Assembly (NCBI GenBank): GCA_018645405.1
Contig: JABGOQ010000072.1
Location: 1 to 64,000, forward strand
Reading direction: 5' to 3'
From: Anaerolineae bacterium
GTDB taxonomy: Bacteria; Chloroflexota; Anaerolineae; Anaerolineales; Villigracilaceae
DNA: 64,000 bases
Below, in pieces: positions 30,013 through 36,256 of the stretch. A program made the translations under genes and the position numbers. The notes beneath the pieces were generated by a model. The model was not told where the DNA came from, did no database searches, and saw only the letters and a list, made by a program, of their open reading frames with translations. How positions within the stretch are numbered: position 1 is the stretch's first letter; every line of letters begins with the position of its first letter.

Positions 30013-31380
30013 TTATTGTTTTACAGATATATCCGTCCATGCAGGTGCGGGGCGGGGAGCTGGTTTACGCCCGTAAAACAAATTATCCATCCATAGGGCA
30101 AAGCGGCGGAAAAATCCTGAGCGAGCGATTCCCCAGCGGACAAGATTATGAGCAAAATTATTTGGGTGCGCATAAGGGCAGACTGTCATGCAGCGACCAC
30201 AATCTGTGCCGATGACATTCCAATAGGCAAAACAAGTATCGGGATTAATATGCCAACGAGCTGCATCATCTACTTTTTCACGCTCATCAAAGGGTATTGA
30301 TTTGCTTGGGCAATTTTCAGCACATTTTTTGCAGATATTGCAAAAGTCAATTGTTGTCGCATCTATGGAACGCGCATCAGCGACTAAGGGGAGGTCGGTG
30401 GTCACTACACCAACGCGGACACGCGGCCCCTCCTGTGGCGTCATTAATAAGGACATACGTCCAAACTCACCCAAGCCTGCATCACGGGCAACGAGCGGAG
30501 CGATGACTTGATAATTCCCGTCAATATGAGCACGAGCGGCATATCCCAACGAGCGAATCACTTCTGCTACTTGTACAGCCACACGCGCACTTTCTACATA
30601 TTGTTTCGCAGATTCCATTACAACGGGCGCATATGGTGCAGCACCCATCATTTCAAAATCCATTTCAACGGTCAGTGCGATGGCGTATTTGTGATCAAGT
30701 TCTATCGGCGCACCATAAATACCTACTCCACGACCAGTGTGTGAGTAAATATGATAAGGCTGCAAAGGGGTAATACCTACATCTAGCGCGCCGAAGTAGT
30801 GCGTCATTTCTTTGATATAAGCTGTTATTTCAATTGGTGTTAACGCTATTTTTTCTGATGCTGGGGTCCCGTCCACAGCATCTCGGAGGGCAGATGTTAG
30901 GGCAAAGCTGGCGTTTGGCGCGGTAAAAAGAATCGGGTCGAAAAATTTTGATTGCGGCGAGAGCAAGCCCGGTTTGTCGCGCGAGCCGTCATCCGTCAAT
31001 TTATCTTCGGGATGTAGCGCATAATAACTTTCATATTCGGGTGTGCCAGATTTTAAATTCGCCCTCGCAAACATAATTTTGCGCTCATCAAAGCGTTTTG
31101 ATGGAATATCGTTCTCAGTTTTGATGATCCCGATGGGGAGGAAGAAGAGGATGACAAATCCGGTGAGAATAGCTGTAAGGATAAAAATCAGCGTGGCACG
31201 CGTGGACGCGGGCAGGCTTGCCGCCAAAATAAAAAATACCGCCCCAAGCACTGCTCCACTAAAGGAGACGCGGACGGCGCGTTGCTCCTTCTCGGCAATG
31301 GAGACGAAGCCAAAGGCAGCGAGGCTGAGCGAAAAAACTGATCCAATGAGAAGAAGCGTGATTTGGGTGAATTGCTCCAT
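30013..31380 (-). CDS. Reductive dehalogenase (RdhA) homologue with fused N-terminal membrane domain
   Basis: A 455-residue protein. Residues 1-88 carry three membrane helices (about 6-28, 38-57, 61-86). From about 180 the sequence follows RdhA: a KYAIALTVEMD strand, ARDAGLGEFGRMSLLMTPQEGPRVRVGVVTTDLPL and two [4Fe-4S] sets, C347-C350-C353-C357 (CxxCxxCxxxCP) and C383...C394-C397-C401. The terminal RSGFFRRFALWMDNLFYG segment is characteristic of RdhA and not of QueG. Corrinoid binding is expected from the family. No TAT signal exists. Basic residues after helices 1 and 3 put the catalytic domain in the cytoplasm. A gene for NADPH:F420 oxidoreductase lies 28 bases upstream. The substrate is unknown. 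Confidence 0.85.
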   Translation of the reverse strand: MEQFTQITLLLIGSVFSLSLAAFGFVSIAEKEQRAVRVSFSGAVLGAVFFILAASLPASTRATLIFILTAILTGFVILFFLPIGIIKTENDIPSKRFDERKIMFARANLKSGTPEYESYYALHPEDKLTDDGSRDKPGLLSPQSKFFDPILFTAPNASFALTSALRDAVDGTPASEKIALTPIEITAYIKEMTHYFGALDVGITPLQPYHIYSHTGRGVGIYGAPIELDHKYAIALTVEMDFEMMGAAPYAPVVMESAKQYVESARVAVQVAEVIRSLGYAARAHIDGNYQVIAPLVARDAGLGEFGRMSLLMTPQEGPRVRVGVVTTDLPLVADARSIDATTIDFCNICKKCAENCPSKSIPFDEREKVDDAARWHINPDTCFAYWNVIGTDCGRCMTVCPYAHPNNFAHNLVRWGIARSGFFRRFALWMDNLFYGRKPAPRPAPAWTDISVKQ

Positions 31381-31408
31381 GGAGAAGTTCCTTTGAATAA
31401 TTTATAGG

Positions 31409-32077
31409 TCAATCAACCCCAGTGATTTTAATCCCCGCTGATTTGACCTTGTTTTGTTTATTGATATAGATCAGCAAGGATGTCATCCCCTCCACAACGG
31501 CAGCATTTTCGATTACGCCCGCATCCCAGCCTTTCATCCCCGCGGCTTCGACGAGTTTCAGCACTTCAAGACGGGCAGCTTTTCCCTTGCCTGTGACCAA
31601 AACATCACAGTTGATTGGATGATCGTCAAAAAGATGCTCATGGGAGATATTCTGAAAAGCAGCTACTACGCTAACGCCTTCGCCGAGAATTTCTTGCGCT
31701 TCTTGTGCCGCGCTCCCGGCTTTGGGCATTTGTACTTTTGTTACCTTTGGTGGGATAAGGGGGACTGTCACATCAACAAGGATTTTGCCTTGTGCGGCAT
31801 CTTTGACACTTTCAAGCGTAGGTATATGCGCGCTGTAGGGAACAGTCAGCACGAGAATATCTGCTTTTTTAGCCGCGTTAAGATTTTGTAGCCCCTCAAT
31901 AATTTCTTTGCCAAGCATTTCGTTCAAATCATCGGCAGCGACTTTTGCTTTCTCATTTGTGCGTGAACCGATAATGACGCGGTAGCCCGCTTTTGCCCAT
32001 CTATAGGCAAGACCTTTCCCCTCTTTTCCTGTGCCACCAAGCACGGCGATTGTTAATAATATTGAGTCTGGAGTCAT
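31409..32077 (-). CDS. npdG: NADPH:coenzyme F420 oxidoreductase (F420H2:NADP+ oxidoreductase)
   Basis: A 222-residue Rossmann enzyme exchanging hydride between NADP(H) and coenzyme F420. The dinucleotide site IAVLGGTGKEGKGLAYRWAKAG ends in GSR, the usual NADP phosphate contact, and the C-terminal ENAAVVEGMTSLLIYINKQNKVKSAGIKITG block is the F420-side signature of Fno/NpdG. It lies upstream of the RdhA homologue in the same direction, so reduced F420 or NADPH could feed that enzyme (inference). No F420 biosynthesis genes occur in the window. Confidence 0.9.
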   Translation of the reverse strand: MTPDSILLTIAVLGGTGKEGKGLAYRWAKAGYRVIIGSRTNEKAKVAADDLNEMLGKEIIEGLQNLNAAKKADILVLTVPYSAHIPTLESVKDAAQGKILVDVTVPLIPPKVTKVQMPKAGSAAQEAQEILGEGVSVVAAFQNISHEHLFDDHPINCDVLVTGKGKAARLEVLKLVEAAGMKGWDAGVIENAAVVEGMTSLLIYINKQNKVKSAGIKITGVD

Positions 32078-33757: not shown

Positions 33758-36256
33758 TTAGGCAAATCCATAGCTTTGCGGTTCGGGTAGTGGAACACCG
33801 CTGGCGGCAATTTCAGTGAGGGCAAGAAAAACCGCCTCGCGCATTTCTATATTGCCGCCATACATTGCGTGGTAAAGTGCGTTGATAACACCCTCGCTGG
33901 GGGTTTTGCGTAAATATGAGAGGGCGGCGAGATTTTCATCTGGGTCTTCGCTCTTGAGCGCAAGCAAGAGGACATCGGTGGCGGGGGCCCCTGCAGAAAT
34001 ACCCATTCCTTGTGAACCGGCAAAGGCGATTAGCCATGGGCTTTCGGATGGAGGAGAAAGTTTACTTGGAACGCGCAGTTTTGCACTTTTTTCTTTTTCA
34101 AGAATATTGGTAGCAATATCGCGCACAGCCCATTCTTTATCTTCAATTTGAGTGTGAGCAAGCAATTCTTTTGCCCAAGGTTCTTGGACGCGAGCCAGTC
34201 CATAAACGGCAGAACGACGGACGAGAATATCGTCTATTTCAAGGGCTTCTCTGAGAGTGGGCCAGCCTTCGGCAGGGTGGTTGGCGAGAGATTCTGCTGC
34301 GGCACGGCGTAGATTTTCATCACCTTGCATGAGAGCACCAGCGATGGCGTCAAGAGCGGCGTCTGAGCCAATGGCGCTGAGCGCAAGACATACGGCTGTG
34401 AGCGTGAAGGTGTTCTGAACTATTTGGAAGATATTTGCTAGATTTTGTGTTGCTTTTTTATCTTGCATTAAACCGCTACCGAGCGCAGCTAGTTGAAGGA
34501 CATAAGCGGATTTGGATTGCAAGAGTTGCCTGAAGAGTGCTGCAACGCTGGGGTCTTCGCTTTTAGCGAGAGAGGCAACGATTTGTCCACGCAACCTGAG
34601 GGGCTGTGTATCGTCCTGTAGGGTTTTTGCAAGAGCCGTCAGAACTTTGCCGCGCCATGCTGATTTACGCGGTGCATCTCGGAGCCATTCTCCCATGAGG
34701 ATCAGATTTCGTTTTAATATGGGATCAGGCGTCCCCAAGAGCGTTTCGACGAGGGATGAGACATCACCTGTTGCGGCGAGATAGTGCATCGAGAGCGTTT
34801 TGCCGCTCCAGAAGGTTTGTCCTGTTAAACGCTCGTCGACGTTATAGTTGCTGAGGGCTCGACCAGCGAGAAACCCGCCAAAAACAGGATGTGCGAAACG
34901 CATTTGATTATCACGATGCTCAATAAGCAGGCCGCTTTGCGCCATTTTATCAAGCAAGCCTCGCTTGGGCGCGATTTTTTCTTTTTTCTCTTCGCCATCT
35001 TCTCTCTCAACGGGGATTTCTTCAGGTGGTTCAAAAGATTTAATCCAACCGCGTGCATTCCCAGAATTGAAAATAGGCTGAGATGTCAGGCTGATTTGCA
35101 TCGCGAGCATTTCTAATGCTGCGACAGGGATATCTTTGGGAGAAATACGGCGAAGATGTGTTTCGATGGCATTTAGTGTCGTTGCACCACGTCCATCACC
35201 TGCGTAAGCTCCCCAAGCTTTAAGGGTGAGTTCAAGTGGACTGAGATTTAAAGAATCGATCTCTAACCAAGTGTTGAGCAAAATGGGGTCAATTTGTTCT
35301 GGCCCAGCCTGTACCCAAGCTTCGAGGGCGACATAGTTTTCCCAAAGGCTTCCCCATTTTTTAAGAAATTCTTCTTGTTCAGATGAATTCCATCTTTTTA
35401 AACTAAGCGGAACAAAAGAAAGATGAATGAGCCGATCTAGATATTCGAGTGTACCTGTTGTGATGATGCGAATCTTGGGATAACTTACAAGAAGTTTTTC
35501 TAAATAGTTGACTACTTTTTCGATCTCATCCGGTGGGATTTCATCCAACCCATCGAGGAGAAGGGTTGCACGCCCGCTACTAAAACTAAAACGAATAAAT
35601 TTGGGCAGGCGTGAAGCATCGAAAAGAGAAGCACCTTCAGTGATGAATTCGATAATGGGGTCGAGAATCTCAGTTAAGTCTTTATCAGGGAGATTTAAGT
35701 CAGCGATATGCAAAAGAATGGGAACAGATTCGGTGAGTGCACCAATTTGCGAATCACGTTTGGCGATTAAGCTGGCGATATGTGCTAAAGTAACCGTTTT
35801 CCCGATCCCCGCTTTTCCAACAATGGCGAGGTGTGTTCCTCCAGAAAGAGCGTCAGAAAAACTGAGAGTTTCGGTTCTGTAAAAAGAGGCAAGGGCAGAA
35901 TCTTGGGGAAGATAAGGAACAGTCAGATTTGTTTGATCTCGGCTTATCAATTCTTCGCTGCCGGGTTCGGTTTGTGCTGGCGGTGCAAGGAAGCTGGGCG
36001 AGAGAATAATTTCATCAAGCGAAAAGAGCGGAGCGGCTAAATGCATCCCCTGTGCTTTTTTGAGCACTCTCTGACGGTGATGGTCTTCAATATTGCTGGA
36101 GCCACGCATTGCTGCTACTTCGCGTCGTTTTTGCCAATTTTCACGGACCTGCCTGAGCAAGGGACGCGCCCAGCCCAGCATCAGCCAGAAAGCTGAGGCA
36201 ACAGCAACCCCGATCCAAAAGGAGATGGCATCAACGACGAGATTTGAAAAACGCAT
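33758..36256 (-). CDS. Membrane-anchored NACHT NTPase with HEAT-like repeats
   Basis: An 832-residue STAND-type protein. One N-terminal helix (about 9-28) and a basic stretch anchor it with the bulk in the cytoplasm. The NACHT domain has Walker A GKAGIGKT (147-154) and the diagnostic Walker B TLLLDGLDE (231-239). The C-terminal half (about 500-820) consists of HEAT/armadillo-like helical repeats (for example DPSVAALFRQLL, DAALDAIAGALMQGDENLRRAAAESL, DILVRRSAVYGLARV). Such proteins act as ligand-triggered oligomerising switches in signalling and phage defence. No separate effector domain is visible. It follows the zinc-ribbon gene by three bases. Confidence 0.83.
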   Translation of the reverse strand: MRFSNLVVDAISFWIGVAVASAFWLMLGWARPLLRQVRENWQKRREVAAMRGSSNIEDHHRQRVLKKAQGMHLAAPLFSLDEIILSPSFLAPPAQTEPGSEELISRDQTNLTVPYLPQDSALASFYRTETLSFSDALSGGTHLAIVGKAGIGKTVTLAHIASLIAKRDSQIGALTESVPILLHIADLNLPDKDLTEILDPIIEFITEGASLFDASRLPKFIRFSFSSGRATLLLDGLDEIPPDEIEKVVNYLEKLLVSYPKIRIITTGTLEYLDRLIHLSFVPLSLKRWNSSEQEEFLKKWGSLWENYVALEAWVQAGPEQIDPILLNTWLEIDSLNLSPLELTLKAWGAYAGDGRGATTLNAIETHLRRISPKDIPVAALEMLAMQISLTSQPIFNSGNARGWIKSFEPPEEIPVEREDGEEKKEKIAPKRGLLDKMAQSGLLIEHRDNQMRFAHPVFGGFLAGRALSNYNVDERLTGQTFWSGKTLSMHYLAATGDVSSLVETLLGTPDPILKRNLILMGEWLRDAPRKSAWRGKVLTALAKTLQDDTQPLRLRGQIVASLAKSEDPSVAALFRQLLQSKSAYVLQLAALGSGLMQDKKATQNLANIFQIVQNTFTLTAVCLALSAIGSDAALDAIAGALMQGDENLRRAAAESLANHPAEGWPTLREALEIDDILVRRSAVYGLARVQEPWAKELLAHTQIEDKEWAVRDIATNILEKEKSAKLRVPSKLSPPSESPWLIAFAGSQGMGISAGAPATDVLLLALKSEDPDENLAALSYLRKTPSEGVINALYHAMYGGNIEMREAVFLALTEIAASGVPLPEPQSYGFA

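Follow-up and report, generated by a model that had tools for sequence, protein, structure and literature searches.

A hybrid reductive dehalogenase homologue in an Anaerolineales genome, with an RdhB-like anchor hairpin that seems to be inverted

The window analysed here, a stretch of 64,000 nucleotides, carries on its minus strand an open reading frame for a 455-amino acid hybrid reductive dehalogenase (RDase) homologue at 30013..31380, with the ATG at 31380 and the TAA ending at 30013. These are the coordinates given in the original prediction, which are correct. The AAGGA sequence at 31389..31393 (minus strand), 8 bases 5' of the ATG, resembles a ribosome-binding site. The next gene upstream, separated by a gap of 28 bases, is npdG-like (31409-32077, minus strand), with 212.6 bits against a cut-off of 149.8 for the npdG model (NADPH-dependent F420 reductase), and dinB starts 1 base downstream. 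A link to F420 through the npdG-like gene was rejected, as the 96% complete genome of the window gave zero matches to CofH of F420 synthesis. Neither an rdh operon nor an adjacent rdhB was found around the gene. The comparison of 28 hybrid loci led us to reject a conserved gene neighbourhood as well, since shared neighbour genes are limited to close relatives. Elsewhere in the window, a gene adjoining ssnA (33758-36256, minus strand) encodes an 832-amino acid protein in which an N-terminal membrane segment is combined with HEAT repeats and a NACHT ATPase domain; it may be an NTPase of signalling or defence.

Structure prediction with AlphaFold2, using an alignment of 43 homologues as input, produced a model with a mean pLDDT of 94.2 and a pTM of 0.91, in which three N-terminal helices precede an RdhA-like core, as had been proposed from the sequence. 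All features of the gene lie on the minus strand. Helix 1 (residues 2-29; 31294..31377) is homologous to TMH2 of RdhB, helix 2 (residues 33-54; 31219..31284) begins in alignment with RdhB TMH3, and helix 3 (residues 58-80; 31141..31209) is an extra helix without RdhB counterpart, followed by a segment rich in lysine and arginine. Between helices 1 and 2, loop 1 holds the EXE motif E30-K31-E32 (31285..31293). Peak 19-residue Kyte-Doolittle means reach 2.1, 2.2 and 2.7 in helices 1-3 and at most 0.96 in the core. The corrinoid/[4Fe-4S] core itself spans residues 98-440 (30061..31089) and is complete, with all eight cysteines of the two iron-sulfur sets present: C347, C350, C353 and C357 in the first (CxxCxxCxxxCP; 30310..30342) and C383, C394, C397 and C401 in the second (30178..30234). 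Y261 (30598..30600) and R322 (30415..30417) are equivalent to the catalytic Tyr246 and to Arg305 of SmPceA, and both are invariant in 43 aligned hybrids. The first 60 residues contain no RRxF motif, so that the claimed lack of a Tat signal holds. As 44 homologues, spread over genomes of Anaerolineales, Spirochaetota and the Bacteroidales type, share this architecture, the feature is not due to chance, and the observation on the gene is confirmed as real. The EXE motif is present in 34 of the 44.

A Pfam search of the 455-amino acid protein found only Fer4 families. The TIGR02486 model (reductive dehalogenase) gave 162.5 bits against a cut-off of 160.35, and among proteins of solved structure NpRdhA, SmPceA and DhPceA are closest in sequence. 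Since the fold is common to QueG, and TIGR00276 (QueG) gives a weak match, a tRNA epoxyqueuosine reductase or an offshoot of it had to be considered, but this identity is exceedingly improbable and was rejected. The TIGR00276 match amounts to 35.3 bits against a cut-off of 200; the Y261 and R322 equivalents are absent in the aligned QueG rows; structural Z values (VIA-align) are 33.0 to NpRdhA (6zxx_B) and 32.4 to both DhPceA (8q4h_A) and SmPceA (5m8u_B), against 15.4 to the best QueG (5d0a_D); and QueG rows form their own group in the tree with full support, a clade of hybrids plus QueG being rejected (p-AU 0.022). Moreover, the genome has a separate QueG-like gene at C151. QueG, which has no transmembrane helices, is a distant fold relative, and the assignment to the RdhA family is supported.

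The trees were built from related sequences, which are not independent events, with Chloroflexota-heavy sampling and partial PDB rows, and agree in keeping the hybrids outside QueG, a nesting within which would have counted against the original prediction. In the 99-row tree, 43 of the 44 hybrids form one clade at 100%, whose neighbour is a group without Tat signal or helices; the remaining hybrid (L076) joins the soluble sister set in free trees, and a single clade of all 44 is not rejected (p-AU 0.81). A careful 37-row tree places the hybrids with the soluble group and with NpRdhA and a relative (support 98/92), apart from the Tat-RdhAs; one clade of hybrids and Tat-RdhAs is not firmly rejected (p 0.098). 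The first AU test, which joined the window protein (P0001) alone to QueG, gave p 0.59, a value that we regard as uninformative because the free quick tree was suboptimal (the hybrid-constrained tree was better by 34.5 log units) and because the question was the attachment point of a very long outgroup; moreover, P0001 and a neighbouring hybrid share 88% identity. The hybrid-near homologues without Tat signal and transmembrane helices (L040, L041, L077, L078, L079, L121 and L122) are apparently a soluble cytoplasmic sister group; they carry Ala or Ser at the position of R415, where L041 is cut short.

Proteins of this kind have been described as "hybrid putative RDases" by Jochum 2018 (PMC6129605) and Atashgahi 2019 (PMC6797604). 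The published hybrids have three N-terminal helices, no Tat signal, no rdhB, an EXE motif in loop 1 and a C-terminus predicted as cytoplasmic or exoplasmic, and they include three Chloroflexi entries (PMC6129605, PMC6797604). Cimmino 2023 considered fused RDases probably related to PceA2B2, with a function that remains to be assessed (PMC10624902). No activity of any hybrid RDase is reported in the literature found (PMC6797604, PMC10624902), and no later assay was found. The window protein shares with the published hybrids a length of ~455 amino acids, three transmembrane helices joined to an RdhA core, the EXE motif of loop 1, the two FeS motifs, a clade of their own and the lack of a Tat signal and of a neighbouring rdhB, with no structural difference between them; it belongs to this class. 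The original prediction was right about the fused anchor and the one-gene architecture, but the architecture is not new, having been published in 2018-2019 with Chloroflexi members. Unlike respiratory RdhAs, the window protein has no RRxFxK motif and no RdhB gene nearby. Its gene is the sole RDH match over the cut-off in its own genome; canonical Tat-RdhA and RdhB pairs are present elsewhere in the genus. Marine bacteria of the Bacteroidales type carry hybrid RDases widely, and in Anaerolineales their occurrence is scattered. In the order to which the Marinilabiliales genome G432 belongs, 41 of the 295 genomes sampled match, compared with only 7 of 400 in the Chloroflexota at E 1e-60, two of the seven being soluble sister forms. 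The hybrid gene is frequent in close relatives, in a genus that includes Candidatus Desulfolinea nitratireducens (L028).

The distribution of positive charges points to a cytoplasmic core across the hybrid family. Lys and Arg together average 3.18 residues in the EXE loop and 4.75 just after helix 3, against 0.23 in the N-tail and 0.50 in loop 2, and by the positive-inside rule N-out/C-in is favoured in 44/44 homologues, whose start codons were picked by alignment and which are related sequences and not independent events. The topology proposed for the window protein agrees with these charges. Being K/R-rich throughout the family, the EXE loop is itself predicted to be cytoplasmic. The same architecture with the core outside, the anchor keeping the orientation of RdhB as in classical respiratory RdhAs, would fit with a hairpin homologous to that of RdhB, where cryo-EM shows the EXE loop on the P side, and with the mixed TMHMM predictions of Atashgahi 2019, in which many members were placed exoplasmic (PMC6797604). 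This arrangement is nevertheless improbable, as the EXE loop and the post-helix-3 segment together carry more Lys and Arg than the N-tail and loop 2 in all 44 homologues, and as the closest non-hybrid kin have neither Tat signal nor helices. The kinship of the hybrids to cytoplasmic enzymes in the tree agrees with an inward core. Some Rieske proteins have an internal Tat motif. Such a motif before helix 3 was rejected for the hybrids: RR is absent from the N-tail and loop 2 in 44/44 homologues, which leaves no sign of an internal Tat signal through which a folded Fe-S/corrinoid domain might be exported.

The three helices had been likened to the three of RdhB, and a comparison of the N-terminal region with RdhB allowed us to trace two of them. 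Against a profile of 13 aligned RdhBs, all from canonical loci, hhalign aligned hybrid residues 1-42 to TMH2-EXE-TMH3 with a probability of 91.8% and a score of 37.6, the EXE motifs of the two being in register. In 60 shuffles that preserved hydropathy, with columns exchanged inside helices or inside loops, the best score was 23.1, and the reversed profile gave 17.9; since the match beats these controls, helices 1 and 2 are derived from RdhB. RdhB TMH1 has no equivalent in the hybrids, and helix 3 is the additional one. Tracing helices 1 and 2, and not helix 3, to RdhB is a difference from the published account. In the 13 RdhBs, mean K/R numbers are 2.15 before TMH2, 0.69 in the EXE loop and 3.23 at the C-terminus, and the EXE loop of the hybrids is significantly richer (3.18; Mann-Whitney p 4e-8). 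According to the cryo-EM structure (PMC10624902), the RdhB loop is on the outer (P) side, which accords with its few positive charges, and the charge pattern of the hybrids points to the opposite side. As the loop is K/R-poor in RdhB and K/R-rich in the hybrids, the RdhB hairpin looks inverted in the latter. That it is inserted inward in the whole family, making the hybrids membrane-coupled RDases that face the cytoplasm and are fed by membrane electrons with no redox-loop proton gradient, is a proposal to which we give slightly less than even chances. The predicted uniform inward topology across the family, against the mixed topology published for the hybrids, and the apparently inverted RdhB hairpin seem to be what is new relative to the literature. 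Three short two-helix RdhB-like proteins were observed downstream of Tat-RdhAs in related genomes (L080 3970-4197, L085 5055-5273 and L086 3418-3645); they miss TMH1 and show the order RRPWYEW, helix, EXE, helix, RRSR.

The electron donor is the weakest step of the explanation. The C-terminal helix pair of the hybrid (30073..30150), aligned to 8q4h_A and 4uqu_A, has H411, R415, D432 and Y436 in the places of H495, R499, D515 and Y520, the menaquinone-pocket residues of DhPceA named in PMC10624902; K489 is replaced by H405. These residues were rejected as proof of quinol use, because the EXE motif and the pocket are also kept in Tat-RdhAs of the quinone-independent Dehalococcoidia type (alignment; PMC10624902). 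Furthermore, no MenD over the cut-off and no MqnA or MqnD was found in this genome (G000), and MqnA/MqnD were found in 0/8 genus members, which are possibly sulfate-reducing Anaerolineales. A quinol donor is therefore plausible as a hypothesis for the hybrid family and weak for this organism. Loading of the core with a cobamide is plausible, since CobS genes are present twice in the genome.

Two characterised enzymes invite comparison. The menaquinol:organohalide oxidoreductase PceA2B2 (8q4h), which fused RDases have been suggested to resemble (PMC10624902), shares with the hybrid the core fold, the catalytic Tyr/Arg, the H/R/D/Y of the quinone pocket and the EXE pair. The hybrid differs from it in being a single chain without Tat signal, in its apparently inverted anchor hairpin, in the missing RdhB TMH1, the extra helix 3 and the K489 to H405 exchange, and in a genome where menaquinone synthesis genes were not found. 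NpRdhA (4ras), a cytoplasmic and catabolic enzyme, also lacks a Tat signal, gives the best structural Z and groups with the hybrids in the tree. In contrast to the 455-amino acid, membrane-anchored hybrid, in which Pfam detects no NADPH-oxidoreductase domains, NpRdhA is a soluble, NADPH-dependent protein of ~700 amino acids without equivalents of H411 and R415, and its catalytic Lys488 corresponds to Arg322.

The gene is still best read as that of a single-gene membrane reductive dehalogenase or of some other corrinoid reductase. The best explanation, and a fairly probable one, is a hybrid RdhB-RdhA corrinoid RDase with an inverted anchor, whose cytoplasmic core meets the EXE loop and reduces small organohalides. 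The RdhB-derived two-helix hairpin (TMH2-EXE-TMH3) would lie in the membrane in the orientation opposite to that in RdhB, and helix 3 would, by geometry, return the chain to the EXE-loop side. The contact known from RdhA and RdhB could for this reason be preserved at the opposite, cytoplasmic face, with the core touching the EXE loop in the way RdhA touches RdhB. The entry point for electrons would be the membrane interface around the EXE loop and H411/R415/D432/Y436; from there they would travel through both [4Fe-4S] clusters and reach a base-off cobamide, and a small organohalide would be reduced, Y261 donating the proton and R322 stabilising Y261. Since the core is predicted to face the cytoplasm and no rdh operon surrounds the gene, the role is likely electron disposal, detoxification or the preparation of a halogenated carbon source, and not the exported PceA2B2 redox-loop respiration. 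Of this explanation, computation shows the fold, the motifs, the hairpin's homology to RdhB, the charge bias across the family and the place in the tree, whereas the actual topology, the loading with cofactors, dehalogenation and the electron donor are inferred.

An RdhA-fold corrinoid reductase with a non-halogenated substrate is an unlikely alternative, though one with several points to recommend it: the stand-alone gene with no rdh operon or conserved neighbours over 28 loci, the broad distribution over genomes in which organohalide use is not known, the lack of reported activity for hybrids (PMC6797604), and a family-specific HIDGNY loop in which Asp287 aligns with the active-site Asn272 of PceA (SmPceA), an exchange that may indicate a different substrate. 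The invariant catalytic Tyr/Arg pair and the structural proximity of the core to NpRdhA and PceA speak for dehalogenation instead. The uniform inward topology, if true, would answer one question left open in 2019 and set the hybrids apart from the redox-loop organohalide respiration of PceA2B2, and the hairpin would be a clear example of an anchor whose orientation was flipped in evolution by charge redistribution.

Two irregular forms of the hybrid gene were also observed. In the same genus, an 82-amino acid frame (L016, G005:C40:4607-4837) joins hybrid residues 1-36 directly to 410-451, either as what is left after an internal deletion or through a collapse in the assembly, and in Marinilabiliales BM703 (L033/L044) the hybrid gene is interrupted by three in-frame stops and is apparently a pseudogene.
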